Below are positions 3,801-56,207 of a DNA stretch of 64,000 nucleotides, piece after piece. The stretch comes from Colletotrichum lupini. Its lineage: Eukaryota; Ascomycota; Sordariomycetes; Glomerellales; Glomerellaceae. Numbering within the stretch: the stretch's first letter is position 1; every line of letters starts with the position of its first letter. The stretch lies in contig NC_064678.1 in the NCBI RefSeq assembly GCF_023278565.1, forward strand, positions 1,426,001-1,490,000, given 5' to 3'. The notes beneath the pieces were generated by a model. That model ran no database searches, had not been told where the DNA came from, and was given only the letters and a program-made list of their open reading frames with translations. The translations under genes were made by a program, and so were the position numbers.

Positions 3801-3873
3801 CTCGTGACAACTACCTTCTGGCCCACCGGAACGTATAGAACACGTCCTTCGATCATTAGGGGACACTTTAGAT

Positions 3874-4326
3874 GTGGGATCCCACACAATCGAAAGTCAC
3901 TTGTTCTCCAGAGGGCGACAGACAGCTGCCTGGTCCGGAGAAGGTGAGCAGGTCATCAACAGGGTCACTAACAGGACAAGCATGCTTGAAAACAAGTCTA
4001 TCGGTGCCTACAAGAGAACTGCCAGTTCTCCTTCAGAGCTTCACAAAGTTGTGTTGCCACCCGGGGCGAGAAAGAATGATCTCATGGTTTTGTTACGTGG
4101 GGCGCGAGTACCATTTGTCGTTCGGCCGATAACTGACAGTCATGTCGCGATGGACGTGGGAGAGACTCAGCTTTCACAGTTACTCCGCTCCGGCTTCGAC
4201 TTATTGTGTCTCGGGAACATAGCCTTTCTCGGTCACTGCAAGCTCGTTGGGGAATGCTTGATCAATGAATACGAGGACAGCTTCTGTCAAACGGGCAGGG
4301 AATGGGAGGTCATTGCACTTCACTGA
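3874..4326 (+). pseudogene. Remnant of a HET-like protein C-terminus
   Basis: An open frame of about 150 codons ends in a segment (VLLRGARVPFVVRP ... GHCKLVGECLINEYED) that resembles the tail of fungal HET-domain proteins, where a 'RGARVPFVLRP' strand precedes a 'GHYxLVGECYVHG' strand. No HET domain is present, and the region upstream dissolves into RIPped DNA at about 3800. The simplest reading is the 3' end of a HET gene whose 5' part was lost to the repeat tract. The first 60 or so codons are not recognisable and may not be coding. The family match is from memory of the motif only. Confidence 0.5.
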
Positions 4327-32771: not shown

Positions 32772-33916
32772 TCAAAGCCTAAGATGTCCTTCGTGATGAC
32801 CCAAATCTTCTCCGATCTTCAAGATGGAGGGTTCCGGTTCTACTTCTGGAAACCTCTCTGGCCTTGGTAGGTTCTTGTACTTCAGAATCTGCTCTGAGAT
32901 GCCATTTTCATGCTGCCACTTTAGTATTGGGTCGTGCGCCACACACTGCCTCTTGATGTTGAAATCAGGATACGGATTCTCCTGTGTTCTCATCCAATTA
33001 TGGGAGATCAAGTCCAAGCTCGGGTTGCAAGTGAGAGCTTGTAAGAGGATATCTATCTGTTGAACATGTTAGAAAGGGTGAAAAGAAAATACCGTGTGCG
33101 ATTCCGACTCACACAATGTGCCAGGTGTGCCTGGTGTCGTTGTGGCGCCATTGAGCTAGTGCCATCGTCAACCAACGTTCACATACGGTCGCTCGATGAC
33201 CCCAGTAGGCGACTTACATGTTCCTGTAATCATTACCGTAGTAGTAGTCAAAGTAAGCATACTTGCGAACTGCATTGAGGCAGTGAAGTTGATGCTGCAT
33301 GTCAATTTCAACGAGATACTTGTCCGACCCGACACCCCACTCCTCTGGGATAGAGACAGATATCTCAGGATCTTTGCCCATTTTCCTGAGTGCATCACCA
33401 CTTATGCCAAAGTACTCAATCCGCGCCATGTCGTCCCAAGCTTTATCGACCTCTTCACTGGGTTGCTCGCGCCATATGCGTGGAGGTGTGTAATCATTGA
33501 ACAACGTTCCTTTGACCTCGACTGTTTCTAGCTGGATGGGAACATCGTCGAGAATTGGACCTGTGCCACAAATCATTTCAGCAAGACTGAGATTGAATTT
33601 AGGTAAGACAAGATTATCCTACTGTAGGGTGACACGCGCTTCATCAGATGGACCGGGTCATTGAGCCATCTCGAAGAGACGAGGAGGACCCCGCATGATG
33701 TGAGGAAGAATATCGCATTGACCGTAGTAATGACCTTTGACTGAAGGCTCCATTGTCCTCGAACTTGTCGAGGTTCATGCCATGTTGGCTAGATTTCGTC
33801 AGTGAGCTACTACCCAGTTTTCTGAGAACGCGAGTTTCCAATGATTGTAAGCTTACGGTAGGGCACAAATCGTCGGCTGAGTCTTGATCTGAGACACTTT
33901 GATAGATCTCTTTCAT
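32772..33916 (-). CDS. UstYa-family (DUF3328) oxidase
   Basis: Five exons on the minus strand: 33916-33857, 33788-33623, 33560-33218, 33155-33113, 33056-32772 (298 aa). All junctions are GT-AG. A membrane span lies at residues 39-58 (VITTVNAIFFLTSCGVLLVSS), followed by the usual SPYSPILDDV motif, EEVDKAWDDM, and both family HXXHC motifs: HQLHC at 165-169 and HLAHC at 200-204. Intron 4 follows that second motif directly. This is a complete DUF3328 layout of normal length. UstYa/UstYb and relatives make oxidative, copper-dependent cyclisations in dikaritin RiPPs (ustiloxins, phomopsins, asperipin), and others act in cyclochlorotine-type pathways. The divergent precursor gene at 35165, with repeated Tyr-containing cores, makes peptide macrocyclisation the likely job. 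It would sit in the secretory membranes facing the lumen. Confidence 0.93.
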
Positions 33917-35164
33917 TTTCGAAAAAGAAGTGGTTGATGCCGGAGGTAGGTTTCAGCTCGAGAATACTCCTTGGTAAGAGGCTTGGACATCCCTTTCCGA
34001 CAGGATGATATCGATAGTGGATCGGAAATCTCGGGGCTCTGATCACCGACAGCGAAAAGAAGGATTCTGCCGACGATGCCGTGATCGCTTGTAATCGTCA
34101 GTTGCGATGGTATCACCTGCCAAATCCTGTCAAGCCTCAATTGCATACCTGGTTTACATCGTCGGGTGTCGACCTCACATTCCAATATGATACGGCGGTC
34201 TCGAATTAAGTAATACATAAGGATGGCTGAAGGATTCGCCAAGAATGAGGAGGATTGCCAAGAACATGACGATTAAGTACAAAATGGGATCCATTCCGCG
34301 ACACTGAGGGGGCAAACCCTCGGCTTGTGAGCAAAGGGGAAGGTTAGCTCGAAACTCGGGCAAAGGAATCGGACTGATCGCTCGATTCTGTCTGGTGGAT
34401 TTAAGGCGCATAGGAGTAAGCAATTGCATATCATGTAGAAGGGAGGGGTAGAGGAGCGAAAGAAGAGATAACAACCCTCTTGAACCCCGGGGACTGATCC
34501 TACAGCGGCGAGGACCGGAACCACCTAAAGTGAACAAAGGTGGCGCTAGTTCATAGACGCGCTGTTTCTACAGCGCAGGTGCTTAGTTGACTGGCGATTG
34601 CTACAGGTACCAATTCCCAGTGAGCCTTGTTAACTGCCCAGTCTTTTCGGTAACTATGGGTTGTGCGGTGCTTGGCATAGTGGGATGTGTGCCTACCTTC
34701 TTCATGTGGCTAGAATATTCATCCCCTGTTCAATCGGGGTCAGCCAGTCAAGAGAAAGAGAAGTGAGTCTAGCTAGGAGCGAATGGCTTCATTACTTCAT
34801 GTGAGATTTACGCATGCCGTGTTTGGTATGAAAGGTGTGAATTCGAGCCGAAGGAACGGAACGAAGGATTGTTGACTGTCACGTTGGCGGCGTGTATTCC
34901 GGATTTGTACTCTGCGGGCGTATTGTTCCTCGTGCTGCATTTCGTTAACGCAAGGGGTGCTTACGACTGTCACATCGTGAGTGGTGATCCAGACAGGCCG
35001 GAAGAAGGACTAGAGAGAGGGGAAATGTAGACTTGAAAAAGGCATATAATATTGATTCTATCTTGATTGACAGTCGTAACACCATCACTATATTACCGTG
35101 CCCAAGATCAGCCCCGTTGCTTTGAGACTTAGTATCATCGCCGTTCTTCTCGTTCTACATCAAA
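33917..35164. promoter_or_regulatory. Divergent promoter region between UstYa gene and RiPP precursor
   Basis: The 1.25 kb lies between two divergently transcribed genes that appear to form one pathway, so shared regulation is likely (inference). Minus-strand open frames near 34050-34540 include one hydrophobic stretch (DPILYLIVMFLAILLILG) but no recognisable protein or convincing splice model. AT-rich sequence at 35040-35095 precedes the precursor start. No specific operator is recognised. Confidence 0.5.
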
Positions 35165-35581
35165 ATGCGTGTCCAAACCCTTCTTACCACTGTCGCCGCT
35201 TGCGCTTCGTTGGCTTACGCCGCGCCGGTTGCCGTTGAGGCATACGGCCCTCCCCTCAACCCTCACATTCCGGCCGTTGAGTCCAAGAGAGAAAACACGA
35301 TCGAAGCCTATGGTCCTCCCGTCAACCCTCATATCATCTCGAAGAAAGATGCCGTCGAGGCTTACGGCCCTCCTACCAACCCTCATATCATCTCAAAGAA
35401 GGACTCAGTTGTTGAAGCTTACGGCCCTCCTCTGAACCCGCATATTCCCGCCGTTGATACCAAGAGAGACGCGGTCGAAGCTTACGGTCCTCCCACGAAC
35501 CCTCACATCATCTCCAAGAAGGATACTGTTGTCGATGCATACGGCCCGCCGACAAACCCGCACATTATTTCCAAAGAGTAG
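35165..35581 (+). CDS. Secreted multi-core RiPP precursor (dikaritin/Kex2-repeat type)
   Basis: A single exon encodes 138 residues. A signal peptide (MRVQTLLTTVAACASLAYA, cleavage near 19-20) is followed almost only by six repeats whose core is AYGPPxNPHI, with x = L, V, T, L, T, T, at residues 26-35, 48-57, 66-75, 84-93, 105-114 and 124-133. Repeats end in KR (41-42, 100-101) or KK (60-61, 78-79, 118-119); the last ends in KE at the C-terminus. This is how UstA, PhomA and other dikaritin precursors are built: a secreted chain cut at dibasic sites by Kex2 and trimmed, giving Tyr-containing peptides that UstYa enzymes cyclise. A UstYa gene lies divergent next door. Each core keeps one Tyr, three Pro, Asn and His. 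I do not recognise this core as a described product. A plain Kex2-processed repeat protein without cyclisation is the alternative. Confidence 0.9.
   Translation: MRVQTLLTTVAACASLAYAAPVAVEAYGPPLNPHIPAVESKRENTIEAYGPPVNPHIISKKDAVEAYGPPTNPHIISKKDSVVEAYGPPLNPHIPAVDTKRDAVEAYGPPTNPHIISKKDTVVDAYGPPTNPHIISKE
35240..35563 (+). repeat. Six coding repeats arranged as two copies of a three-unit block
   Basis: Core units start at 35240, 35306, 35360, 35414, 35477 and 35534. Units 1 and 4 have x = L and are followed by PAV(E/D)(S/T)KR. Units 2, 3, 5 and 6 have x = V or T and are followed by IISK(K/E). The order is therefore A-B-B, A-B-B, which suggests duplication of a three-unit block. Confidence 0.9.
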
Positions 35582-35864: not shown

Positions 35865-35951
35865 TTCCGAAACCGAGAATCGAACTCGGGGCTATGCCTA
35901 ACCTCTCAAAGAAATGAGAGGGCATCATGTTGGCCACTACACCATATCGGA
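35865..35951 (-). tRNA. tRNA-Glu (anticodon CTC) with a 15-nt intron
   Basis: The minus strand folds as a complete cloverleaf from 35951 to the discriminator A at 35865. The acceptor TCCGATA/TTTCGGA has one T-T mismatch. The D stem is GTGT/ACAT, the anticodon stem ATGCC/GGCAT, and the T arm CCGAG-TTCGATT-CTCGG. The anticodon CTC is at 35918-35916. A 15-nt intron (35914-35900) sits directly 3' of position 37, the standard place, and its GAGAG can pair with the anticodon region as in other nuclear pre-tRNAs. The B box GTTCGATTC and a TTTT Pol III terminator just past the 3' end are present. Confidence 0.93.
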
Positions 35952-36454
35952 TGTTGATACCTTCAGCCTGAAGAATTTGCACTATGACGGTAGGGTACGT
36001 TGTGGTTCTGCCCTAAACGAGTAATGTCGATGCAGATTCTCTGTCCTTAGACACCCCACATTCAGGGGAGCTGTCGGGTAGATCTGCCTGGGCTGACCCT
36101 GCTTAACTGCACAAGGGTCAACGTGCTTAAGGCCTAGCACGCTAAAAACATTGAACTCACCCTTGCTGGATCTAGAGCTAAGTACAGTGAGTGGTAAGTC
36201 GATCTCCACATTAGTCAAGAAGTCGAGGACGATTGAGCAAACGCTTCTCATTCGAATGGCACTTGAATGCGATTCGCTGATGTCGGCGTCCGTGCTATGA
36301 CGACACCAAAGCTTCTCCTCAGTGCCGCGACCTGCACTTCGCAACACTACGTCTGACATTGAGCCAAAAATGAGGGTTCGCCGATGACTCTTTCAGACAG
36401 AGATCGATTTCCATCTCCCACCAACCGACGCAAGGCCCCAATTGCAGTTTTCAA
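35952..36454. other. Intergenic, no gene seen
   Basis: The stretch is the upstream region of the SGNH hydrolase gene and the 5' flank of the tRNA. Nothing specific is recognised. Confidence 0.55.
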
Positions 36455-38083
36455 ATGGGTGACATGATTCCAGAGAGCACCCGGCCAGTTCGGACCATGG
36501 TAGTCGGCGACTCCATGTCTCAAGGCCGTGAAGGGGACTTTGCATGGCGATATAGGCTATGGCAGTGGCTCACAGAAGAGAAGATCAACTTTGAATTTGT
36601 TGGTCCGTATGAAGGAACAAAGACTCCGGATCAACCTCGTCCACCGCAACCACCGGCTCTGAAAGACGACCCGCTACCAGCACCTGACATGCCAATAGAC
36701 CATGGCGGCTATGCTGCAGGCGTGCACTTCAACTCTCACCACTTCTCAGTTTGGGGTCGCCAAGCAACACAGTGTAAAGACCTCATCGAGGAGCAGGTGG
36801 CGCGATTCAGGCCTGACTATCTGCTTGTTATGCTTGGCTTCAACGACATGGGCTGGGGTGTCGCAGATGCCGAAAATACTCTCGGTGCCATGAAGAAACT
36901 CGTGGATAATGCACGCACTGCGAAATCAGATATCAACTTCGCTCTTGCTGACGTACCGATGCGGACGCCAATTGATGGGGCAGAGAAACTTCCTGCCATG
37001 GTGGAAGAGTACAACCAGCTTCTACGAACATCAGTGCCAAAGTGGTCATCCTCTGAGTCTCCGGTTGAGTTGGTGGAGGTCCGGCGTGGATACCATTGTT
37101 CCCAAGGAAGTTACGATGGATTACATCCAAATGCTTTGGGCGAATTTCAGATTGCAAGAGCCTTCTCTCGGACTTTGTCCCGAAAGTTTCGCATTGGAAC
37201 CCAAGATCTCACTATTCCACAAGAGATCCCACAAAGACCGACGCCAGTGCCGGCGAATGTTGTCGCGGAAGCAGTTCCCTACGGAATTTGTGTTAAATGG
37301 AATCCGGTATACGGCGCTATCGGCTATGATGTCAGAATTCGCAATGATGACAACCTGCCATGGAAGGAGTCGAGAACAGATGTTGCCCAGTACAACTCGA
37401 CGTGGACCCAAGAAGGGCAGGAGTATCAGTACCAAGTCCGGACCTTTAATGGAGAGGGCCTTAGGTCCGCCTGGTCTCATACGGTCTCAGCAACTGCTCA
37501 CCCGAAAACAGCCCCGGGGCCTAGGAAGATAATCACCAAACCTGACCTGTATCAGGTCCTTGTCAAATGGGAAGAGCCTCAGGGGCAAATCGAAGTGGAC
37601 CGATACGAGATCATCCTCGTAGACCTCTCATTACCGGGATCTTTTCCGACTGCTATGGCGCTGAGAGAGACTGCGACAACATTCACCGACCTATCGGCAG
37701 GCCATCGGTATGGGTTGGCGATCAGTACTTGGACAAACTACGGAGGTGGTGTTCCGGCAGGAGGCCGGAGCTTCATTGCTGGCAACGGCAAGCCACCGAC
37801 TCCGACTCAGCTCCAAGTTGAGGTTCAGAATTCCATCACCGTGCACCTAAAGTGGGAAGAGTCGAAGGGCGCAGCGGGATATCGCGTGTGGGTGCGGAAC
37901 CTAGTCGAGAGATCGGACTTCGAAGAAGACGGAGAAACTGAATTTGCGGAATATGGTATTGCATTTCTGATGCCAGGCGCTTGGAACTTTGAGTTTTGTG
38001 TTTCTGCATACAACGGAAGCCTTGAGTCGGAGAGATCAGGCAGCATTGTTCCACTTAATAGAGGCGACATAGAATCTCGGTGA
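36455..38083 (+). CDS. SGNH/GDSL hydrolase with three FN3-like modules
   Basis: A single exon encodes 542 residues. The SGNH hydrolase domain covers about 1-240: VVGDSMSQG with nucleophile Ser20, the Gly of block II near GYAAGV, LGFND with Asn130, and SYDGLHPN with Asp221 and His224. All catalytic blocks are present. Three fibronectin-III-like modules follow at about 252-348, 352-445 and 447-535, each with a W/Y core pattern (VKWNPVYGAIGYDVRIRN, VKWEEPQGQIEVDRYEI, LKWEESKGAAGYRVWVRN). There is no signal peptide. SGNH enzymes are esterases or lipases, and the FN3 modules probably bind a carbohydrate or protein partner. It is the first protein gene downstream of the RiPP precursor on the same strand, but the link to that pathway is only positional. 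Confidence 0.87.
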   Translation: MGDMIPESTRPVRTMVVGDSMSQGREGDFAWRYRLWQWLTEEKINFEFVGPYEGTKTPDQPRPPQPPALKDDPLPAPDMPIDHGGYAAGVHFNSHHFSVWGRQATQCKDLIEEQVARFRPDYLLVMLGFNDMGWGVADAENTLGAMKKLVDNARTAKSDINFALADVPMRTPIDGAEKLPAMVEEYNQLLRTSVPKWSSSESPVELVEVRRGYHCSQGSYDGLHPNALGEFQIARAFSRTLSRKFRIGTQDLTIPQEIPQRPTPVPANVVAEAVPYGICVKWNPVYGAIGYDVRIRNDDNLPWKESRTDVAQYNSTWTQEGQEYQYQVRTFNGEGLRSAWSHTVSATAHPKTAPGPRKIITKPDLYQVLVKWEEPQGQIEVDRYEIILVDLSLPGSFPTAMALRETATTFTDLSAGHRYGLAISTWTNYGGGVPAGGRSFIAGNGKPPTPTQLQVEVQNSITVHLKWEESKGAAGYRVWVRNLVERSDFEEDGETEFAEYGIAFLMPGAWNFEFCVSAYNGSLESERSGSIVPLNRGDIESR

Positions 38084-38316: not shown

Positions 38317-40593
38317 ATGGCAGTTCAGATAGTGCCGATCTCCCTAGAGCACGCTCTTAAAAAACGCTCCGGGAGAGGTACGAAACCAGAATCGTTTGAT
38401 TTCTTTCACGTACTCGGAACAACAGGATGCTCAGTCCAGTGCGCCATTTTCGATTCATGGAGCACGTTATCCCGAGCGGGCACAGCGAAACTGAGGGCAG
38501 AACATGACAACTTTACTAAGCACGGGAAGAAAAAGGTTGCTCGAGGAAAGTCTTTCACGTATGAGGACTTGAATCACTCAGCCCAAAATGGCTGTGGGAG
38601 CTGCAAGGCTCTGAACACTATGTTCGATAGCGCACTTACCAAGAATTTTGGTCCAATTGCCCCCTCTACGACATTCCGCTGGACGGGAAAATTCAGTGGC
38701 ACTCTAGAAATGGATGCTCCCGATGGCAAAGTGTACTATGTCAGACTTTTCAACGTGGCGGGGTCCAGCAATGTCTTTCGCCGATTACAATCGACCAACG
38801 GCGTGGCCGGGGATACCTCTTCCGATCTAAGCTTGCAGAGAATTCGGACTTGGATCAATGACTGCGAACTACACAACAAATGTGGCACGGGAAAAGACAT
38901 GAAATTGCCTACGAGGCTCGTTGATGTGTCTCAGCCCGGAGACAGACTTGGAGTCCATCTAGTAGTTACATCTGGACAAATAGGCACATACATGTGTCTG
39001 AGCCACTGCTGGGGAAAGATCAAGATCAAATGCAAAACGGAAACCGACAATCTGAAAAGACAACTGGAGTCAATACCTTGGTCTTTGCTTCCACCCAGCT
39101 TCCAACAGGCAGTCGAGATCACGAGGAAGCTCGGGGTCCGCTATCTCTGGATTGACTCACTTTGCATCATCCAAGATGACAAGATAGATTGGGAGAAAGA
39201 GGCAGCTCAGATGGTCAACGTGTACCGCAACTCATACGCCACAATTGCCGTAAGCTGGTCTCATGATTCTGAGGGAGGCTGCTACTCAAAGACAATTCCA
39301 AGCCAGTTCTTTCAGATCACTACTGAATTTGGCGACGAATTCAGACTCGCCTTGATAACCGGTGAAAAGCGGGACGAAATGTCGGAATACGCCAGGGTAC
39401 AAGAGTATTTCCCCCTTTTCAACAGGGCTTGGTGTCTTCAGGAACGTCTCCTCTCGCGGCGGATCATCCATTGCAACTATGGAGAAATGGCATTTGACTG
39501 TGCCAGCGGGTACTCATGCCAGTGCGGAGGAGAGCAACACCAGAATTGGCACAATTTGATACGGTTCTCCGGCACATATATACCGCTACGATCTCGGTCG
39601 AAGTACCTGGCACTGCTGAATAACCCTATGACAACTTCAATAACCGCCATCGCCACAAAGAGTGGGAAAATCGATCCTTATGAGAGATGGCACCGCGTTA
39701 TCGGCGAGTATACCTGCCTCAATCTTACGTTCACTGGAGATATGCTCCCGGCACTTTCAGGCCTTGCTCATGAGACTGCTGAAGTGACAAATGATACCTA
39801 TCTGGCTGGTATGTGGAAGAATAATCTTGAACAGGACCTCATGTGGCGCGTTGTTACTGTGGCGGATTGGAAGAAGCAACGCGCGAAGATACTAAAACGA
39901 GGATGGATCGCCCCGACTTGGTCTTGGGCATCCACAGGAAGTGGCTGCAAAGTAGACTATCCTACATTTCAGAATGCCGAGTTATTGGACTACAAGACTC
40001 CCGGGATTATGGAAACAGCCCAGATAAGCTGTTCACCTTCTGGGGCTGACCTCTATGGCTCGGTGTCCTTTGGCTTCCTGACAGCGGTGATAAAGCGCCT
40101 GTCTATCATGATACAGCGACCGTGCTCACACTGGGATCGGAAGCGACGTTGGACAAATTGGATATACGGCAGGTATCTGCTTTATGCCCGGGAAGACAAG
40201 CGAGAGTTTCGGGAAGAATGTGCGCCTGTGACTGGTGAGGCACCACTTGAGTTTGGGACTGCGGAATCGGAGGTATGGGTTGACCCTTCAGTTGAGCGAA
40301 TGAATTCCTGCTTCATACGCAATAGCCGACCTGAAGAATTCCCGGAATTGTGTAGGCATTGCACCTTTCTTCCTGCTGAGTTGATCTACATCAAAGGTTA
40401 TGGTTTGGGCAGCAGGAATGTACGGACAAAAGGCACACGGGATTCTTTTCTTATTGTTGCCAAGGACGCGACAAGTTCTTACATCAGAGTAGGGTTATTG
40501 GAGGTTATTTGCGATGATTGGGCTGAAAGGCAGATCTGGTATCGAAACGTCTGGGCAGCTGCAAAGCCCGAGACATCGATCACAATCTACTGA
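38317..40593 (+). CDS. HET-domain (heterokaryon incompatibility) protein, intact
   Basis: A single exon encodes 758 residues. The N-terminal part has a Cys-rich segment (GCGSCKALN, about 92-100). The HET domain spans about 225-375: YMCLSHCWG (225-233), LPPSFQQAVEITRKLGVRYLWIDSLCIIQDD, then the acidic DWEKEAAQM, YRNSYATIA and, further on, FNRAWCLQERLLSRRIIH. The C-terminal half includes the typical APTWSWAS strand. HET proteins trigger non-self recognition and cell death after fusion of incompatible hyphae. Specificity cannot be read from the sequence. The layout is the same as the interrupted gene at 47626-57341, suggesting paralogues. Copy 1 of the retrotransposon begins only 73 bp past the stop codon, so the gene's 3' UTR and polyadenylation may be altered. 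Confidence 0.92.
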   Translation: MAVQIVPISLEHALKKRSGRGTKPESFDFFHVLGTTGCSVQCAIFDSWSTLSRAGTAKLRAEHDNFTKHGKKKVARGKSFTYEDLNHSAQNGCGSCKALNTMFDSALTKNFGPIAPSTTFRWTGKFSGTLEMDAPDGKVYYVRLFNVAGSSNVFRRLQSTNGVAGDTSSDLSLQRIRTWINDCELHNKCGTGKDMKLPTRLVDVSQPGDRLGVHLVVTSGQIGTYMCLSHCWGKIKIKCKTETDNLKRQLESIPWSLLPPSFQQAVEITRKLGVRYLWIDSLCIIQDDKIDWEKEAAQMVNVYRNSYATIAVSWSHDSEGGCYSKTIPSQFFQITTEFGDEFRLALITGEKRDEMSEYARVQEYFPLFNRAWCLQERLLSRRIIHCNYGEMAFDCASGYSCQCGGEQHQNWHNLIRFSGTYIPLRSRSKYLALLNNPMTTSITAIATKSGKIDPYERWHRVIGEYTCLNLTFTGDMLPALSGLAHETAEVTNDTYLAGMWKNNLEQDLMWRVVTVADWKKQRAKILKRGWIAPTWSWASTGSGCKVDYPTFQNAELLDYKTPGIMETAQISCSPSGADLYGSVSFGFLTAVIKRLSIMIQRPCSHWDRKRRWTNWIYGRYLLYAREDKREFREECAPVTGEAPLEFGTAESEVWVDPSVERMNSCFIRNSRPEEFPELCRHCTFLPAELIYIKGYGLGSRNVRTKGTRDSFLIVAKDATSSYIRVGLLEVICDDWAERQIWYRNVWAAAKPETSITIY

Positions 40594-40666
40594 TCCATAA
40601 GTATTGAGACATCCATTACTTTGTTTTTGACATAATTCCGAATCACGGATGAGATCATACTGTAAC

Positions 40667-40871
40667 TGTTAGTATCCCTATTACAGGGTGGTTGGTTCGA
40701 ACCGTAGTTAACGAAGAGATTAATTAAACTATATAAATATCTGCGTAGTAGGTATAAAAAGGAGGTTCTAACTATAAGTTAAGCTAGCTATGATAATTAT
40801 AAATAGGGCCCCTAATTAGCCCCTACGTAGTTAGCTATATACCGCGGTCGAATTAGACTTCTAATCCGATA
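40667..40871 (-). repeat. LTR of copy 1 (3' LTR in element orientation)
   Basis: 205 bp, starting TGTTAGTATC and ending CCGATA. It matches 47314-47518 apart from mostly C/T and G/A transitions. Confidence 0.9.
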
Positions 40872-41824
40872 CTAACTTTCTCTTTTTTTTATTAATTTAA
40901 CCGCTACGGTTAGAGGTATAATTCGACCTCGGGCCCGTTTACTAAGTCGTCTCCTTTTCCCCCTTTTCTCTACTCTTTTTATATAACCTATCCCTCTATT
41001 TATATAATAACTTTTCTACTACTTACGAATTACTCTAATCCCTTATTTAGTACTACTTTTATAAAAGCGTTTATAAAGTTATTTTTATTATTAATCTAAC
41101 GGATCTCGAGTATCTCGCGCCTTTTATACGATTACTTAAGGGCTATAATATTAATTATAAGCCTCTTTTCCTTTATCGTTCCTAATTTAACGAGGTATTT
41201 ATATAATAAGTAGGAATTTATATAAATAATTATTAAAATAGGTAGAAGGCTAATTCGATCGGTAATCTTTTTTAGCGTTATTAAAATCGCGTAGGAGAGG
41301 TTAACGCCGTTAATTATATTATAAACCTCTAACGCTAATATATTTCTTATTACCCGCTTATTTTTAGTTAATAAGTAGTAGATTATATTACTATATATAA
41401 TAAATTCGCTCTTACTTATACTCTCGTTAGCTAGGATAATAATATACCCTAATTACGAAATAAGGTCGTTATTATTTATAAATAACCTATTAACAAAGAC
41501 GTAGAGCTTACTAGTCGTAAGGTTAATTAGGTAATAGATAAGACCTCGATCGAAATTCGTTTATTATTATTTAAGCTATTTATTAAGTACCTCGACGTTT
41601 TGTTCGGTTAGATCTATAGCCTATGCTACCCTAACGTAGTTAAAAGTCGCCTTAAGCTAATAAATACTTATAATATATACCCCTCGCGCAAGCTTAGCCT
41701 TATACCGCTTTTTAATATTAGTTATATTTAGATCGACGAGGTTAATCTTCTTACTCTACCCCTTTTATTAAAAAACGATAGTTTCCCTTTTAATTATAAG
41801 AATCCCGCCGTTAAATACTAAAGG

Positions 41825-41998
41825 GGTGTTTATTATAAGGACCTCTTTTAGCTTTATTATAAAGCCCGCTTTCTAAAGCTCCTTATTCTTTTTTTTTATA
41901 AAATTAATATTATATAGGCCTAATATATCGTCGGTTTATATTCTAACGATCCTAAATTAGTTACCTTTATACTCCGTAACTAATAAGCACGGGTCGTA
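41825..41998 (-). pseudogene. Reverse transcriptase remnant of copy 1
   Basis: Minus-strand translation gives YDPCLLVT, then about 11 residues on TDDILGLYN, and further on KAGFIIKLKEV. This is the copia-type RT segment around the [Q]TDD catalytic box. Three in-frame stops fall where Gln is expected (before FRIVRI, directly before TDD, and in the EL-x-KAGF segment), as predicted if CAA/CAG became TAA/TAG by RIP. The homologous stretch in copy 2 lies near 50180-50350 and is more degraded. Confidence 0.75.
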
Positions 41999-44900
41999 CG
42001 TAGAGGTAACTATTAATAGTTAATTAATATAAAAATCGTAATAAGTAGCCTACTAATAGGTGCCCGATTCTGCGAGCCTATATAGTAGCTTAAGTACTTT
42101 AATAATCGTACCTTCTAAGTACTTACTAGCTATTTCCTTTAGTAAATAGGCTAGGATTTTCCTTATAAGCCCTGTGGCCGATTGGGTATAGGCCTAGGTA
42201 ATATTATAGCTCTAAATCTCGTATCCCTTCTTCTATAGCGATACTATTAGTACTATTATTAATCGTTAGCTATAGCGCTATATAGTAGGCGATTATATAA
42301 GTAGCGTCGCCTTTTTAATATTACCGTATTCTTAAATTACGTATCTAGACTTCTTGTACAGCTAGGGTGTTCCTTTTTTTTTAATCTTATGAACTATTCG
42401 TAATTTAAATATATAGAGGTTTGTATATTTTTCTAAGTCGTATAAGATAAATCGATAAACCCCTCGATTGCGAAGAGTGTTTACTTTAATAAGATCTAAT
42501 CCCTTATACGGCTTTTTAGTAGTTATAATTATGCCTTTTTTACGTAATTTAACCGCTAGCTCGAAATCGGCTTTCTTTTTTACTATATAAAAGGTATTAA
42601 TTACCTCGTTATTAATAATAAATTGCCGCGTTAGGGCTTGCCGTCGTGGTCTTTTGTAACGTCTTACTAGTAGTATTAGTGCCCTTTTAGTAATATCCTC
42701 TTCCTCGTCGTTTATTAGTACTACTACGACGATTTCGTTAAGGATAATTTCCTATGCCTCTATTACGGGTTATATAGTTTCCCCTAGCTCTTCTTCTTCT
42801 TATAGGTTAGAAATTACCTCGTTAGGATTTATATAGTACGGTCTAACTACCGTAATTAACACTTCGAGTAGCTAGTTACGATCTTTTATAACTATATAAG
42901 AGCGCTCGTTAACGGAAATTAACTTATATAGCCCAGCCTATTATTAAGTAATTTCGCGCTATACTTATATATCCGAATTTAGTAATATATCTAAATTATC
43001 CCCTATATCGGGCCTATTGCGTATAGTAATTACCTCGTTAACTTACCTTTTTATACTTACCTCGCGCAGTGCCCGTATTACTTTTTTAATTACTCGGGCT
43101 CGTTAGCTTATACTTAGCGACGGTAGCGAGGCTAAGGTCGTTCTTAAATATACTCTAAATATTCATAGCGTTAATATAAGTCCGTTAGGCCTTATAATAT
43201 CGTTATAGTATTTAAGTACTATTTAGAGGCATTCGTCGTTAGTAGAATCCGGATTTTCTTTTTTAATAATTCTAAACGCCCTTTTTAACTATTAATATAC
43301 CCTCTCTACCTTTTTAATACTATAGTGCGCTTTAACGGGTACGACTTTTAGCTATATACCGTAGGCCGTCGTATTATTTCTAAATTTTACTAACTTAAAG
43401 CTAGTACTAGCGTTAGTTCTAATACTATTTAGTAGTCCCTAGTATATATCGATCTAGCTTTTTCGTAAGGCTACTTATACTATCTTTACTTATAAATCCC
43501 GGAGGAATTGCCCTACTTAGAAAGATATAGCTACGTCGATTATATATAGTACTAGCTAACTATTTAAATAGAAAATATTAACGACTATTTCTTAGTTAAA
43601 GTTAAGCTTATTACGTAATTTAAACTTAAATCTGCGTAGGCTCTGCGCATTTATTTAGCATTAGTAATATACTTTTATTAACTACTTTAGCGCCCCTATT
43701 TTAATATTATTATTACTTAATTACTTTAAGAAGTTATATAGCCTCGTAACCGACGGGTACCCAAATCTCCGGTATAATCTTCTAAGCTCACTTTTTATTA
43801 AGTAATTAATCGACTTCGTATTATTAATAAGCTTTATAAACGCATACCCCTATCGTCGTTCGACTATTTCGAAGTGCTTACCGCTAGAGATTCTATTCCT
43901 CGTGTTATTAAATATAATACCTAGTTAATCTATATCTTTTAAACATAAGAGAAATAGGGTATTAATAAGTAAAATATAAAAAGTTATCGTTCTAAAGTGC
44001 GTTTTTATTTTTATTATACCTAGGGCGACGATTTCCTTACCTAGGCCGAAACTAATCCTTATAATACCTACTATTAACGTATTAAACGTTATTAGCGCAA
44101 TCTTTTATAGCGCTTAGAATTACCCTTTTTTTCTAATTAACTATTACGATACCTTAGTATCTAAGATAATCTTATAGAAATTATCTAGGCCGTACTTTTC
44201 GCTCGTATAGAATACTTATACGAGCTTAGTATTTAAGGGATCTAAGTAATATAAAAAGGACCCCTCTAGCTACCCCTAGATTTACTTAGTACTATGTTCT
44301 TTTTTTTTAAATATTAAGAGAAATAGCGTTTTCTCTTTAATCGTTAAGAGAATAGGCTTTAGCCTTATTAAATTCGCCTTTTTAACTACCTCTATATCCG
44401 TTATTTAAGGGACCTTCCCTTACTATTTATAAATAAAAGCCTATTTATTAAGAGCTTTTGCTACTCTCTATTCGTTTAGCCTCGTATATCCTCTAAAAGT
44501 TAATAGGGTAAAAAAAGAGTAGTTAATATCGTCGATTTCGTTATAATCTAATTCGTTAGTATAGGGGGTAAGATCTTCTTTATTTTCCGAATCTCCTATA
44601 GGGGGTATATACTTTAGGCCGCTATTTTAGCTACCGTCGCTAGGTTCTATACCCCCGGATCTACCCTTATATATAATAAGGAATTAGTTAAACTAACGAG
44701 GGCTAGTTTTACTATCTATTACCCTCGACTTTTTATACTATTTATATAATTTAGTACGCTCTTCCTCGGAGTAGTTACTTAATTAATATTTATCTTTTTT
44801 ATAAATATAGTATTACTTCTTTTATTACCCTATTTATAAATTAAATCTCTATTTATTTAACGAATCTGGGCCTCCTTACTAGCGATTACCGTATCTAGCC

Positions 44901-47313
44901 TCTTTTCTTTTTTTATTATACGTTCGATTAACCTAATATTATTAATAAGGGCCGTCGTATACTTAGAAGTAGGTTTAGTATGGTATTCTTATTTTAATAT
45001 TAAAGCTAGATCTTAGCCTCGAGTAGAGCGTCTCGTAGTCTTCGGGTGCTTAGTATAAGGTAATCTTTGTTTTTAATATACGCTAGACTACGGTATAAAA
45101 ATATCTAACTTTCCGCTCGTTTATCCCCTTATTTAGCTAGGTTTTCGCTAGCTTATCGATTCGATCGATAAGCTCTTTAAGGATCTCTACTCGCGATTTA
45201 CCCTCTATTATCCTAGCTATTAATATAAAAAAAATCGCTCGTAGCTTAGATAGGAGCTCTAGGTTCTTATTATAGGTCTTAAAGTAGCTTCGGATTGCGT
45301 TAATTATACTAAGAAAGTCGTTTCGATCGAGATTACGTACCGCTTCGTAATAATAATCGGAGGCTTTACTTATAAGTATAATATTAATTACTAAATAGTA
45401 CTAGTATTCCCTAATTCCGACTTTTTTATAATAATCGTAAAATATCGTTAGGGTTTTTTATAAGACCTTATACTTCCCCCTAGAATATAATTTCTCTTTT
45501 AAGAAGATCTTTTTAAAGTCTATAAATTACCTCGTATTTACTATTAGATTTTTAGTATTTATATACGAACCCTGCGTCGCTACGTATTATTAATAACTTG
45601 GGGTCGTTTACTTCTTTTTTTATTAGCTAATCGGCGCCGAATTTCGTATTAGTAACGGTAACGAGTTATAGATCGAAATAGGTAGAATTATTAATTATCG
45701 TACTTTTAGCACTATATTTTGCCCCGGTATATCTTTTTGTAATAATAGATTTCCGTTAGTAATTATAGGGAGGAAATCTAGGTCGTTTACCCTTTTTTTA
45801 AATTCGTTAAAGCGATTATACGCTCTATCGACCTATGCTTAGTTCTATAGTACGAATTCCTTTTTTATAATTATCGCTATTAGTATTTCGTATAGCTCTT
45901 ATAATTATAATTGCGCTAGTAATACCCCTTGCCCATAAAAGAATTTATTAACTACTTTCGTAATTCTTAGGCTTGCGCTCGCGAACTATTCGTTTAGCTA
46001 ATAACTAAGGTCGTTTACGATTTTATAAAATAGGGGTTACCCCTATAGCCCCTTTTTCTTATAAACCTTAGTTAAATAGATTAATATTACGTTAATTTGC
46101 TTACCGTTAGGCTAGTTTACGATTCTATATATCCACGTCCCCTAATAATCCGGGTTAATATTTACTTATTTATAAGGGATTAGGATTCTATTTAGGATCG
46201 GGTTTCGTCCTCTTCTTTTTTACCCTAACTCGCTAAGGGGCGTACTCTAGCTTATACTTATATTAGTAATTACTAGCGTATTTAATCTTAACGGGGATAT
46301 ATCTAATTTACGCACTAGTCGTAGTAAATCCGTACTTTTATTACTTAACGAATTTATTAAGGTCTAGGAGATTCCCGCTTCCTCTCGCCGTCTCGCTACT
46401 ACTCTCGTTTTTATTATTTTTAGCGATTATTACTACCTTTTTAAATCGCTAGCTATCGTACTTACTAAGATCCTCTTTTTTATTTAGTAAAAAAGGGTAG
46501 GTTTTAGTAGTTCTTTTTAATAATAGTAATAGTAGACGTTTATATTATTATAAGAAAATATAGTAATTAGTCTCGGGATCTTTACTAATTACTAATTTCC
46601 GCTATCCCGTATACTTCTAGCCTCCTAAGCCTCGTACTCTCTATAATCTCTAAATAGCTTCCTTCCTTAACCTACCTCTTTTAGGGCAGTATTCCGTAGG
46701 AATAGTCGAAAGTAGACGCTAGGTAGCTTATAAAGGAGCTATATAGGCTATTAAGAACCGTATAGGCCGTTAAGTATAGTTAATAAAGTTAAGCCCTCCT
46801 TTTTATAAAATCGTATATTTTGAAGAAATTATTAAAAATGCCCACTTATTATTCGTACGCGGTAGGGTTAGATACTTTAGAGATTTTATCTTTTACGGCC
46901 TCTCGGTACCCTATTTTATATCTTTTAAGTAGTCTTTTTCGTAGCTTAATTACGGTTAGGTAATTATCGCTTATTAGTAATCCCTTTTATTACTTAGTTA
47001 ATTTCTAATTACGGGCCGGCCGTAAAAAAGTCGTTTAGTAAAAAAGCTACTTAGGGCGATAGTAAAAAGCTAGTTGCTTAAGCAGTTCCGTTAATTAACA
47101 TAATTTAATATAATAAACGTCGACCTCTCGTAAGTAATAAAGGGCTACGATTACTTAATTCCGTACGGTATTTAAAAATCGCCTCCTTTTTTATTTACTT
47201 CTATAAAGTTAATTAGTACGAATCTCTTATCCCGTGCGGTATTAAGAAGTTATCTTTTCTATATAGCGAGATACTTTACTAATCTATAATAATAGAATTT
47301 AATTACTAATTAG

Positions 47314-47518
47314 TATTAGTATTCCTATTATAGGGTAGTTAGTTCGAACCGTAGTTAATAAAGAGATTAATTAAACTATATAAATATCTACGTAGTAGGT
47401 ATAAAAAGGAGGTTCTAACCGTAGGTTAGGCTGGCTATGATAATCGTAAATAGGGCCCCTAATTAGCCCCTGTGCAGTCGGCTATATGCCGCGGTCGAAT
47501 TGGACTTCTAATCCGATA
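47314..47518 (-). repeat. LTR of copy 1 (5' LTR in element orientation)
   Basis: 205 bp, the same length as its partner at 40667-40871, ending CCGATA directly before the GTAAC target duplication. Confidence 0.9.
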
Positions 47519-47625
47519 GTAACTTAGAAAACCAGCAATGTTACTTGTTCTATGGTGACCACCTCAATTATATCTCTTCGCAAGGTTATATTAAGTACTA
47601 GTGTGAAGGACAAACGCTTAGATAA

Positions 47626-49018
47626 CTACATAATCTTGAAAATCTCACGCCCTGATTCTTCGAAACAATCTTTGAGACGCCCCAGATTCGATACGCCCAA
47701 TTCCCGCGTATGTTTCCCTTTGATATATTCCCGATATCTTATCAACCAATCTCGAATGCTGGGTTCTGGAGTTGAATGTTCGTTCGAGATGGCCGGCAAT
47801 TGTGAGAATCCTTGTTCTACAAATCGGACGTAACCAAGACGTTCATACTCAATGTGTCCATCTGCGGTTGCGGCTCGTTTTGATCGAATCACCAGACAGG
47901 CCATATCAGGATGGTTGCCTGTCTTGGCACCGAAATCTGTTATGCGAATAATGCGAACGGGAATCGACCACCCGGAATTAGCGCTAATGATCGGAGCGTC
48001 CAAATGCAAGCTCCTAGTATGGCTGTCGCCTTGGCTGATCCATAAGTTCCCGACAACGAGCCAGACAGGACTGACACCATATTCAACGAGTACTCCCGGC
48101 CATTTCACTAGTGTTCCGGAGATTGCAAAAGTTGAAAGTAGAAGGTGGGCAGAGTCAAGCTCTCCGGTTGAATCGACAATACCAGCTGGAACGCAAACTG
48201 CTTCCAGAATATCTGCAACAGGAGAGTAATCTTCGCTCCCTATCTTCCCCAACGAGACCCAGCTGCCCTTGCCCGAGTTTCTGCAATCTGAGTCAGAGTC
48301 GAAGCGAATAAAGTCGTCGTTGTGGTACTCAAGAGATGCCCACGACCATGTCGGGGCTCTCCATGCAATAGGACGCTTTTCAGGTTTATAGACGAGCCAC
48401 AAAAGATCTAGATGCAACGAGTCCATCCATAGCCCCGCTCGATAGAGTTTCTCGTACTCGGGATTCCATACTTTTGCAATGCCGGCCAAAGCCGGGAAGA
48501 TGTCCTTTGAAAATGTCAAGTTCAGAGCACAGTAAGCCTGTACTGTTTGTCGCCACGTTTTGACGCTTTTGGTCCATTTGGGCGAATGGAGTAGTGCCGG
48601 GGTAAACTTGCTGTAGTCCAGATTTTCGTCTTGGCCATTTCCTGGTGCCGAGGATGGCAGTCCTTCTGCAATCCAATTATACTGCCCACTCAACTCGGCC
48701 AAACTACCTGAGAACTGGATCTTCTCAGGCAAAGAGGTGGAGGTTGAGATCTCACCGCACTCGCATGTCCTCACTGAGCGACATTCCCAATTCAATTCGG
48801 AACCGGCAAAGTGTACAACTCTACCTGAGAGCAGACGTTCCTGAAACACCCACGCCCGTTTTGTAATAGGGAAGTAGGACCAGAAGCTATTAATATATAG
48901 CAATTCCGAATACGCGTGTAGTTTGAGATCTGAATCATCCACATCATTCATAAGTGACAGCTGGTGCGATTAATATTTAGGATCCAAGGAAGAGGTATAA
49001 AGCCCGCGGCTAGAGTCG
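47626..49018 (-). pseudogene. Interrupted HET-domain gene, C-terminal part
   Basis: This part continues the gene begun at 57341. After removing the retrotransposon and one copy of the 5-bp duplication, the frame enters here at 49018 and stays in phase to the stop at 47626. It carries the second half of the HET domain (ITKRAWVFQERLLSGRVVHF) and the C-terminal region with APTWSWASLEY. One in-frame TAA (48972-48970) interrupts it 22 residues after the junction; CAA to TAA by RIP spreading from the element would explain it. An ATG at 48951 leaves a 441-codon open frame that could be translated alone but lacks the N-terminal half of the HET domain. The two parts sum to 749 codons without a frameshift. 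Confidence 0.85.
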
Positions 49019-49023
49019 ACTAC

Positions 49024-49229
49024 TATTAGTATCCTTATTATAGGGTAGTTAGTTCGAACCGTAAGTTAACGAAGAGATTAATTAAACTATATAAATATTT
49101 ACGTAGTAGGTATAAAAAGGAGGTTCTAATTATAGGTTAAGCTAGCTACGATAATTATAAATAGGGCCCCTAATTAGCCCCTATGTAGTTAACTATATAC
49201 TATAATTAAATTAGACTTCTAATCCGATA
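49024..49229 (-). repeat. LTR of copy 2 (3' LTR in element orientation)
   Basis: 206 bp, starting TATTAGTATCC (TGTTAG in copy 1, a G to A change) and ending CCGATA. One extra base relative to copy 1 is in GAACCGTAAGTTAACG. Confidence 0.88.
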
Positions 49230-52200
49230 CTAACTTTTCTTTTTTATTAATTTAATTATTATAATTAGAAATATAATTCGACCTCGGGCCTATTTACTAA
49301 GTCGTTTTTTTCCCCCCTTTTTTTTACTCTTTTTATATAACCTATCCCTCTATTCGTACAATAACTTTTTTATTATTTATAAATTATTTTAATCCCTTAT
49401 TTAATACTATTTTTATAAAAGCGTTTACGAGGTTATTTTTATTATTAATTTAATAAATTTTAAGTATTTCGCGCTTTTTATACGATTACTTAAAAGCTAT
49501 AATATTAATTATTAGCCTTTTTTTTTTTATTCTTAATTTAATAAAGTATTTATGTATTAAATAAGAATTAGTATAAATAACCGTTAGAATAGGTAAAAGG
49601 CTAAGTTAATTAGTAATTTTTCTTAACGTTATTAAAATTATATAAGAGAGGTTAATACTATTAATTATATTATAAACCTCCGATATTAATATACTTCTTA
49701 TTATTTACTTATTTTTAATTAATAAATAATAGATTATATTACTATATATAGTAAATTCGCTCTTACTTATACTCTCGTTAACTAAAATAATAATATACCC
49801 TAATTATAAAATAAAATCGTTATTATTCGTAAATAACTTATTAATAAAAACGTAAAGCTTACTAATTATTAAGTTAATTAGGTAATAAACGAAGCCTTTA
49901 TCGAAATTCGTTTATTATTACTTAAGCTACTTATTAAATACCTCGACGTTTTATTTAATTAAATTTATAATCTATACTATTTTAGTATAATTAAAAGTTA
50001 CCTCGAGCTAATAAATACTTATAATATATACCCCTTATGCGAACTTAGTTTTATATTACTTTTTAATATTAATTACGTTCGGATTAATAAGGTTAATTTT
50101 CTTACCCTACCCCTTTTATTAAAATACGATAGTTTCCCTTTTAATTATAAAAATCCCGCTATTAAATACTAAGGGGGTATTCGTTATAAGGACCTTTTTT
50201 AGTTTTATTATAAAGCCCGCTTTTTAAAGCTCTTTATCCTTTTTTTTATAAAATTAATATTAAATAGGCTTAATATATCGTTAATTTATATTTTATCGAT
50301 TTTAAATTAGTTACTTTTATATTTAAAAATTAGTAAGTACGGGTCGTATATAAATATAATTATTAATAATTAATTAATGTAAAAATTATAGTATATAGCT
50401 TATTAATAAGTACTTAATTTTGCGAGCTTATATAGTAGCTTAAATACTTTAATAATCGTACTTTCTAAGTACTTACTAGCTATTGTTTTTAGTAAATAGG
50501 CTAGGATTTTTTTTATAAGCCCTATAGCTAATTAGGTATAGGCCTAGGTAATATTACGGCTTTAAATCTCATATCCCTTTTTTTATAGCGATACTATTAA
50601 TACTATTATTAATCGTTAATTATAGCGCTATATAATAAGCGATTATATAAGTAGCGTTACCTTTTTAATATTACCGTACCCCTAAATTACGTATTTTGAC
50701 TTTTCGTATAATTAGGGTATTCTTTTCTTTTTAATTTTACGAACTATTTATAATTTAAATATATAAAAGTTTATATACTTTTCTAAGTTATAAAGGATAA
50801 ATTAACAAACCCTTCGATTATAAAGAATATCTATTTTAATAAGATCTAATCCCTTATATAGCTTTTTAATAATTATAATTACGCCTTTTTTACGTAGTTT
50901 AACTACTAGCTTAAAATCGGCTTTTTTTTTATTATATAAAAAGTATTAATTACCTCGTCGTTAGTAATAAATTACCGCATTAGGGTTTACTATTATAGTT
51001 TCTTATAACGTTTTATTAATAATATTAGTGCCTTTTTAGTAATTTCTTTTTCCTCGTTATTTATTAATACTATTACGATAATCTTATTAAAAATAATTTC
51101 TTATATTTTTATTATAGGTTATATAGTTTCCCTTAGCTCTTCTTTTTTTGATAGGTTAGAAATTACTTTATTAAGATTTATATAATATAGTTTAATTACC
51201 GTAATTAATATTTTAAATAACTAGTTACGATTTTTTATAACTATATAAGAGCGCTTATTAATTAAAATTAACTTATATAGCCTAGCTTATTATTAAGTAA
51301 TTTTGTGCTATATTTATATATCCGAATTTAATAATATATTTAAATTACTCCTTATATCGGGCCTGTTATACGTAGTAATTACTTTATTAACTTACTTTTT
51401 TATACTTATTTTGTGTAGTACCCGTATTATTTTTTTAATTACTTAGGCTCGTTAGTTTATATTTAATAATAATAATAAGGCTAAAGTCGTTTTTAAATAT
51501 ACTCTAAATACTAATAGCGTTAATATAAGCCCGTTAGGTCTTATAATATTATTATAATATTTAAGTATTATTTAGAGGTATTCGTTATTAATAAAATCGG
51601 GATTTTCTTTTTTAATAATTTTAAACGCCCTTTTTAGTTATTAATATGCTTTTTTTACTTTTTTAACATTATAGTGCGCTTTAATAGGCATAACTTTTAG
51701 TTATATATTATAAGCCGTCGTATTATCCCTAAATTTTACTAACTTAAAGCTAATACTAATATCGGTTCTAATACTATCTAGCGGTCCTTAATATATATTA
51801 ATCTAGCTTTTTCGTAGGGCTACCTATACTATTTTTATTTATAAATCCTAAAAGAATTACCTTATTTAAAAGGATATAGCTATGTTAATTATATATAGTA
51901 CTAGCCGACTATTTAAATAGAAAATATTAATAACGATTTCTTAGTTAAAGTTAAGCTTATTACGCAATTTAAACTTAAATCTATATAAGCTCTGTGTATT
52001 TATTTAATATTAATAATATACTTTCGTTAATTACTCTAGCGCCCTTATTTCGATATTATTATTACCTAATTACTTTAGGAGGTTATATAGCCTTATAACT
52101 AACGAGTATTTAAATCTTTAGTATAATTATTTAAGCTTATTTTTTATTAAGTAATTAATTAACTTCGTATTATTAATAAGCTTTATAAACGTATACCCCT

Positions 52201-55200: not shown

Positions 55201-55330
55201 TAAAAATCTTTTTTTTATAACTTCTTAATACCCTATTTTATATTTTTTAAATAGTTTTTTTTTATAACTTAATTATAGTTAAGTAATTATTACTTATTAA
55301 CGATTTTTTTATTACTTAGTTAATTTTTTA

Positions 55331-55885
55331 AAATTAGTAATCTCGTATCAAGAACTAATAAAAAAAAGAGCTCCTTAGTAACTTTTTAAAAGATTCTTTT
55401 TTTTTTCCCTTAGAGCCGTAATTTTTTAGCCTTTTTTTAAATTAATAATAACTATAATAAGAGGTCGTAAGATTATTTTAAAGTAGCCGCTTTCTTTTTA
55501 AATTAATTTTTAAAATCCGTAATACTCTTAACTCAATACTCTTAGGACCTCTAAATCCCCTCTTCTTTTATTTAATTATCCCTTATATTATATTTTTAAG
55601 TAATACTCGGGGGGTAGTTAAGGGGGTTATAAAGAGATTTTTTAAATTATAGGCTTAAAATTATATTTATAAGATCCTCGTAATAATAGACTTTTCCGTA
55701 TATTATAAATTTCTTAACTTTATAACTTTTATATAGGTTCTTATTATATTTATTAAAAATATGTACATTTAAAGATCCCTTTTTTTAATTACGCAATATT
55801 TTTTTATACTATATTATTAAGCTCGTTTATTATATTAATTAATTAAATAAGTAATCGCTACGTAAGTAATTTTTTTTACTAATTT
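55331..55885. mobile_element. Possible nested insertion inside copy 2 (MITE-like)
   Basis: Copy 1 reads continuously from CTTAGTTAATTT into AATTACGGG near 46995-47015. In copy 2 these halves are about 0.57 kb apart. The extra DNA is bounded by a 10-bp inverted repeat, AAATTAGTAA (55331-55340) and TTACTAATTT (55876-55885), and flanked by near-duplicates TAGTTAATTTTT and TAGCTAATTTTT. It is as A/T-rich as its host. A deletion in copy 1 is the alternative, but the flanking duplication favours insertion. Confidence 0.5.
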
Positions 55886-56207
55886 AACTAGCTAATTTTT
55901 AATTACGGGCTAGTTATAAAAAAGTTATTTAATAAAAAAGCTATTTAAAATAATAATAAAAAACTAGTTATTTAAGTAGTTTTATTAATTAACGTAGTTT
56001 AATATAATAAATATTAACTTCTTATAAGTAATAAAGGGCTATAATTATTTAATTCCGTACGGTATTTAAGAATCACCTCCTTTTTTATTTATTTTTATAA
56101 AGTTAATTAGTATAAATCTCCTATTTTATATAATATTAAGAGGTCGTCTTTTCTATATAATAAGATACTTTACTAATTCATAATAATAGAATTTAATTAC
56201 TAATTAG

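Follow-up and report, generated by a model that had tools for sequence, protein, structure and literature searches.

A head-to-head UstYa oxidase and six-unit repeat precursor in Colletotrichum lupini as a candidate two-gene peptide locus

Introduction

Can an oxidase gene and the gene of its apparent substrate, standing head-to-head, make up a pathway for a ribosomally synthesised and post-translationally modified peptide (RiPP), and if so, of which kind? The question is raised by a locus of the anthracnose-type fungus Colletotrichum lupini within a stretch of 64,000 nucleotides (contig NC_064678.1, positions 1,426,001 to 1,490,000; hereafter the window), where a gene of the UstYa (DUF3328) family faces away from a gene for a repeat precursor with the core Tyr-Gly-Pro-Pro-x-Asn-Pro-His-Ile (YGPPxNPHI). 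An initial annotation had called this a new dikaritin-type locus, an interpretation that our analysis partly supports: it was right in kind and too strong in label and chemistry. We consider it probable that the pair is a two-gene RiPP locus, in which a Kex2-processed repeat protein is oxidised, and probably closed into a ring, by a single copper UstYa that is likely homodimeric. The locus belongs to a class already known as common in fungi.

An intact oxidase gene and a repeat precursor under selection

The UstYa gene (32772–33916, minus strand) was intact in our splice model, comprising five exons and four introns (68, 62, 62 and 56 bp, all GT-AG) and encoding 298 amino acids. The protein matched the Pfam UstYa family (PF11807) over residues 30–255 with 188.3 bits (cut-off 25), its most hydrophobic 19-residue stretch started at residue 39 by hydropathy, and the motifs HQLHC and HLAHC began at residues 165 and 200. 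Two further marks of the family, a single membrane helix and the copper motif HxxHC(x)nHxxHC, were thus present, bearing out the earlier description of a complete UstYa with a membrane span and these two motifs. The nearest relative, P0004 of C. limetticola, was 99% identical over 100% of the query and had an identical start, which supports the gene model.

The precursor gene (35165–35581, plus strand) runs without an intron to a stop codon ending at 35581 and encodes 138 amino acids. A search of the C. lupini genome with this precursor gave a single match. The two start codons are 1,248 bp apart, and the stretch between them is presumably a shared promoter region. A divergent precursor of this length with six AYGPPxNPHI units and KR/KK sites, 1.25 kb from the oxidase gene, had been proposed, and we recovered it at exactly the same coordinates. 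The six units read E/D-A-Y-G-P-P-x-N-P-H-I, with x being L, V, T, L, T and T in order (three sequence variants) and with one Tyr per core unit, invariant in all six. The sites between them are, in order, KR, KK, KK, KR and KK, and the last unit ends in KE and the stop codon. Both L units are followed by PAV-E/D-S/T-KR, the last unit by ISKE and the others by ISKK. With six units and five sites, the protein has the repeat structure that defines Kex2-processed repeat proteins, namely at least three tandem repeats of at least eight amino acids between KR, KK, RK or RR (PMC7329392), as judged by applying the definition to the sequence.

The codons of the repeat gave the clearest indication of its nature. 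Across the ten core codons (x excluded), pairwise comparison of the six units yielded 72 synonymous versus 5 nonsynonymous codon differences, while only 23% of all possible single-base substitutions in these codons would be silent. Codon positions 1 and 2 varied in none of the ten codons, the third position varied in nine of the ten columns, and all 5 nonsynonymous differences corresponded to the D of unit 6 versus the E of the other five. The core has been kept as protein while its DNA diverged; the locus is real, and selection acts on it. In 10,000 codon shuffles of the precursor, two AYGPP never arose. Likewise, a scan for repeats with Kex2-type sites (at least five copies) returned no match in 1,419,995 bases of dinucleotide-shuffled sequence, nor in window positions 1–32000 and 36501–64000.

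Distribution in Colletotrichum and beyond

Relatives of the UstYa protein formed 27 protein clusters, 12 of them from Colletotrichum. Eight of these 12 were 76–99% identical over 98–100% of the query, and four shorter models were 77–91% identical over 73–77%. Ten named species were represented (C. limetticola, C. scovillei, C. acutatum, C. navitas, C. shisoi, C. musicola, C. chrysophilum, C. sidae, C. godetiae and C. truncatum), the closest of which by identity were C. limetticola (99%), C. scovillei (96%) and C. acutatum (90%), three species which, like the host itself, we take to belong to the acutatum complex. The other 15 clusters, including Xylaria, Apiospora, Penicillium, Lecanicillium and Ustulina, were only 31–37% identical. 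By sequence similarity, UstYa orthologues occur across the genus. The alignment of the relatives (A2) held 26 of the 27 proteins; P0015, whose model lacks the second motif, was left out, and P0014, which also lacks it, was kept.

Precursor relatives were found in three further species, namely C. higginsianum (P0001), C. navitas (P0002) and C. tofieldiae (P0003), and a profile search at E up to 10, scoring the best 8,000 candidates by shared words, returned only these three. Their regular units keep Y-G-P-P and P-H, with x being I, V, L or T; N is replaced by S in two C. navitas units and I by L in one C. higginsianum unit. An irregular stretch in both P0001 and P0003 resembles, by eye, the repeat read in another frame or over a wrongly predicted intron, through either an annotation error or a real lesion.

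The initial annotation had suggested a search for conserved pairing. This was positive for C. navitas, where the UstYa protein (P0007) and precursor P0002 both list a contig of 174,830 bases and the two genes therefore share one contig; the refuting condition of the initial annotation, a precursor family occurring widely with no UstYa gene nearby, was checkable only in this one of the three other precursor-bearing species. With precursor relatives in three other species against UstYa in ten named ones, pairing is shown for two species only, and judged on these sequences it is probably conserved. The few precursor matches may reflect missed annotation or real absence. With the precursor in three other species and its UstYa partner in ten named ones, repeat precursors may often be missed in annotation.

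Recurrence of the pair in the C. lupini genome

A six-frame UstYa search of the genome (63,443,975 bases, 12 contigs) gave 32 matches, 31 of them above the cut-off, which fall into the window and 22 further stretches of ~10 kb each, 23 regions in all. A repeat precursor with Kex2-type sites lay within ~5 kb of the UstYa match in six of the 23 regions (the window, L010, L012, L013, L015 and L017), and all six pairs are head-to-head, an outcome with a probability of ~0.0002 if four arrangements were equally likely and the loci independent. Outside the window, the start-to-start gaps were 937 (L010), 783 (L012), 756 (L013), 1453 (L015) and 2591 bp (L017), with the first precursor exons in L012, L013, L015 and L017 assigned by eye. 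The 2.6-kb gap of L017 contains eleven open frames of 93–142 codons, so a gene between UstYa and precursor is possible there. From a 3-copy scan, we discarded the matches in L019, L026, L027 and L030, judged by eye to be low-complexity, along with second-frame matches in L010, L012, L013 and L017 that overlapped the real precursors; at five copies, only the second-frame match of L017 remained.

The five other precursors carry other repeats, e.g. QDDAKAYKRG (15 copies) and AEAIPFYPKRG (10 copies). For six repeat strings from these loci, the only match in the open-access literature was, by title, on yeast promoters. The L017 precursor has a di-histidine motif, EPHHRGKK, and is possibly one of the HH-containing DUF3328-linked types (G-8, Colletotrichum included) described in PMC7329392. 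In a further region, L020 (C3:3913000–3922999), two UstYa matches lie ~2.4 kb apart on opposite strands, pointing away from each other.

Comparison with known systems

The organisation of the locus is, on our best reading, closest to that of asperipin-2a from Aspergillus flavus, with which it shares a repeat precursor with Kex2-type sites, a single UstYa homologue (AprY in A. flavus) and the lack of a nearby tyrosinase. None was found near the pair; among 40 tyrosinase matches in the genome, those on contig C5 fell only near 6,300,396–6,300,967, ~4.8 Mb away. In contrast, the asperipin-2a core has several Tyr and its product is bicyclic (PMC9233826), and its locus includes a transporter and a reductase that were not recognised at the Colletotrichum locus.

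Ustiloxin and phomopsin loci resemble the present one in having a signal peptide (apparent here), a multi-core precursor, Kex2-type sites and a DUF3328 oxidase, whereas their cores carry Tyr-x-Ile and their loci contain several DUF3328 genes and a tyrosinase (PMC7329392). Y-x-I had no match in the precursor, and given the lack of both such a core and a nearby tyrosinase, alongside one UstYa, we rejected this subtype. Ustiloxin-type precursors reported from Colletotrichum itself (PMC7329392) belong to the same precursor class and have a different core, YVIP. The epichloecyclins (gigA, Epichloe) share imperfect repeats, several congeners of about nine residues, a DUF3328 gene in a small cluster and a plant-associated host fungus, but they differ in their 27-residue repeats, their own kexin gene kexB and the position of Ile at the N-terminus with Tyr internal (PMC9233826).

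The initial annotation held that such a pairing defines dikaritins. This was overstated: a DUF3328 gene is among the 15 nearest genes of 1,758 of 7,878 repeat precursors (Umemura 2020, PMC7329392), and one is also present in the gigA cluster. A multi-core precursor beside a DUF3328 gene is found here but is not specific; the label needs a product and is not established. That the core matches no known product stands insofar as its strings were found in no relevant open-access paper, supplementary tables lying outside that search. The family may well be listed without comment in the survey table of PMC7329392, and the core was not shown in the available portions of two papers on fungal or Colletotrichum RiPPs (PMC6339444 and PMC11943440).

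For the enzyme, a search for related solved structures returned none by sequence and, by fold, none at E ≤ 0.001 (best 1.1). An AlphaFold2 model of P0004 from 26 aligned sequences (mean predicted local distance difference test score 70.6, other four models 56–58; predicted template modelling score 0.65) predicts, with modest confidence, a long helix at 35–62 and motifs on helices 162–177 and 194–214. Such an arrangement would match that described for CctR of the cyclochlorotine pathway, a homodimer with two coppers per monomer, one membrane helix and the HxxHC(x)nHxxHC motifs on two helices, which, however, hydroxylates a non-ribosomal cyclic peptide (PMC12435403). Purified CctR, ApnU and AprY were copper- and O2-dependent and required dimerisation (PMC12435403).

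Proposed pathway and alternatives

On the two-gene reading, the precursor would enter the secretory pathway via its putative signal peptide, and Kex2 would cut at KR and, probably less efficiently, at KK, releasing six copies (three variants) that contain the nonapeptide core. The UstYa, anchored in a Golgi or endosomal membrane and most likely homodimeric, with paired HxxHC motifs that bind two coppers, would then use O2 to oxidise the core. The likeliest outcome would be a bond from the only Tyr to a side chain towards the C-terminal end (Ile/Leu or His), after which the peptide would be trimmed and secreted. We infer the Kex2 cleavage at these sites, the action of this UstYa on this precursor, the cross-link with its partners, and the role of the peptide; that the enzyme would act on YGPPxNPHI as a homodimer is argued by analogy. 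Because x varies while Y, P-H and I/L are conserved, Tyr is more plausibly joined to the terminal Ile/Leu or to His than to x; the enzyme might also hydroxylate the core and form no ring. Known cases are consistent with these steps: a signal peptide and Kex2 release the cores, DUF3328 oxidases close side-chain rings, mostly via Tyr (PMC9233826, PMC7329392), one UstY homologue suffices for asperipin-2a, and DUF3328 genes are enriched beside repeat precursors (both PMC7329392). Poor cleavage at KK would instead leave a single, a triple and a double unit as products. The calculated [M+H]+ values, linear and minus 2 H, are 1007.531 and 1005.515 for YGPPLNPHI, 993.515 and 991.500 for YGPPVNPHI, and 995.494 and 993.479 for YGPPTNPHI, each 71.037 higher with an N-terminal Ala; the linear V form and the cross-linked T form lie a mere 0.036 apart.

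Several observations weigh against this pathway. KK, found at three of the five sites, is usually a weaker site for Kex2. None of the frames scanned beside the pair was recognised as encoding a peptidase or a transporter, and precursor relatives came from three other species versus ten named ones for UstYa. Seventeen of the 23 UstYa regions lacked such a precursor in a scan that would miss those with few repeats, introns inside repeats or greater distance. No 9-mer was common to at least four of the six intergenic stretches, three 8-mers occurred in four of the six versus 1.15 in shuffles, and no promoter motif shared among the six pairs was found. Finally, enzymes of the UstYa family also hydroxylate or halogenate (PMC12435403).

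This last point leads to the alternative that fares best, in which the UstYa modifies without cyclising, hydroxylating or otherwise oxidising a Pro, Ile or His side chain to give a linear modified peptide. CctR, of the same family, hydroxylates C-H bonds, halogenation, hydroxylation and isomerisation are ascribed to the family besides macrocyclisation (PMC12435403), and the core is Pro-rich with one Tyr only. Nevertheless, characterised members in a repeat-precursor setting form rings, Tyr is over-represented in cores near a DUF3328 gene (65.6% versus 38.2%; PMC7329392), and here it is invariant in all six units. We regard a linear modified product as unlikely.

Somewhat less likely again is that the precursor yields linear, pheromone-like secreted signalling peptides and that the neighbouring UstYa acts on something else. 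Mating factors do stay linear and 78% of repeat precursors lack a DUF3328 gene in their vicinity (PMC7329392), and contig-level pairing was shown in one other species only; on the other hand, head-to-head pairing recurs at six loci of the genome, and both genes share a contig in C. navitas. A linear mimic of a plant hormone of the PSY family (Tyr, then Asn-x-x-His-x-Pro) was considered for its similar order of Tyr, Pro, Asn and His by eye, and mimics of that family are known from bacteria and nematodes (PMC10629525). As defined there, Asp-Tyr followed by NxxHxP had no match in the precursor, the one-residue-shorter NxHxP occurred in only two of the six units, and Tyr follows Ala; we rejected this candidate as highly improbable. 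A chance repeat or non-coding artefact beside an unrelated gene, in favour of which nothing was found, is contradicted by the codon pattern, the shuffles and the precursor relatives in three species, and can be dismissed as negligible.

Returning to the two-gene RiPP locus, a more specific and decidedly speculative version may be offered. The product would be a conserved Colletotrichum cyclopeptide, the Pro-rich nonapeptide YGPPxNPHI closed into a ring from its only Tyr to the C-terminal Ile or to His by one copper UstYa homodimer. Whereas toxins of this class are patchy in occurrence, the cyclopeptide would act as a signal central to the genus, be it in infection, development or metal handling, and the head-to-head pair would represent a minimal RiPP module that these fungi employ more than once. 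No description of a ring of the YGPPxNPHI type was found in the literature.

If the pair works together, oxidase and substrate form a two-gene module with one Tyr per core, which would allow a clean test of the cross-linking by a single UstYa homodimer. That UstYa is conserved throughout Colletotrichum hints at a function in the biology of the genus that goes beyond strain-specific toxins, and the five further head-to-head pairs offer other cores for comparison. What lifts the locus above routine is this genus-wide UstYa partner, together with the unusual Pro-rich, single-Tyr core and a head-to-head module recurrent in one genome.

Coordinates and surroundings of the pair

Table 1 Features of the locus (window positions) and of other UstYa regions of the genome (positions on contigs C2 to C4)
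Feature	Position	Strand	Remark
UstYa exon 1	33916-33857	-	splice model
UstYa exon 2	33788-33623	-	splice model
UstYa exon 3	33560-33218	-	encodes first copper motif HQLHC, residues 165-169
Region ahead of first copper motif	33408..33422	-	approximate, not separately defined; within exon 3
UstYa exon 4	33155-33113	-	encodes second copper motif HLAHC, residues 200-204
UstYa exon 5	33056-32772	-	splice model; coding end at 32772
Intergenic stretch	33917..35164	.	1,248 bp between start codons; two minus-strand open frames, 118 and 130 codons, not taken as genes
Apparent signal peptide	35165..35221	+	~residues 1-19; by eye, hydropathy peak at residue 6
Core unit 1 EAYGPPLNPHI	35237..35269	+	
KR site 1	35285..35290	+	
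Core unit 2 EAYGPPVNPHI	35303..35335	+	
KK site 1	35342..35347	+	
Core unit 3 EAYGPPTNPHI	35357..35389	+	
KK site 2	35396..35401	+	
Core unit 4 EAYGPPLNPHI	35414..35446	+	
KR site 2	35462..35467	+	
Core unit 5 EAYGPPTNPHI	35477..35509	+	
KK site 3	35516..35521	+	
Core unit 6 DAYGPPTNPHI	35534..35566	+	
L010	C3:6849500-6859499		repeat precursor head-to-head with UstYa
L012	C2:1103000-1112999		repeat precursor head-to-head with UstYa
L013	C4:1625000-1634999		repeat precursor head-to-head with UstYa
L015	C4:35600-45599		repeat precursor head-to-head with UstYa
L017	C2:1436500-1446499		repeat precursor head-to-head with UstYa; precursor at 421-1281 of L017, minus strand
L020 UstYa match	C3:3916623-3916790	-	no repeat precursor seen
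L020 UstYa match	C3:3919197-3919448	+	no repeat precursor seen

A larger gene cluster was considered and rejected, no neighbour being obviously part of the pathway among 18 neighbouring frames in a Pfam scan of 20 sequences, from which frames below 120 amino acids and intron-rich genes were left out. The neighbours matched a Tle1-like hydrolase, an amidase, a GDSL lipase with fibronectin type III, HET domains, fungal transcription factors, a flavin adenine dinucleotide (FAD) monooxygenase, a zinc dehydrogenase, WSC, ribonuclease T2 and calpain. The FAD monooxygenase and the dehydrogenase lie at 61.5–63.8 kb, beyond an AT-rich block at ~40000–56000 (19–37% GC). This block and another at 1–4000 (19–26% GC) stand beside HET-domain genes and are probably repeat-rich sequence or sequence affected by repeat-induced point mutation.

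Just downstream of the precursor, a transfer RNA (tRNA) gene was detected at 35865–35951 on the minus strand (Rfam RF00005, 47.4 bits); ARAGORN, run with the bacterial code, reported none, perhaps owing to an intron. Adjoining the precursor on the same side, a single plus-strand frame at 36374–38083 encodes a GDSL lipase domain fused with fibronectin type III domains.

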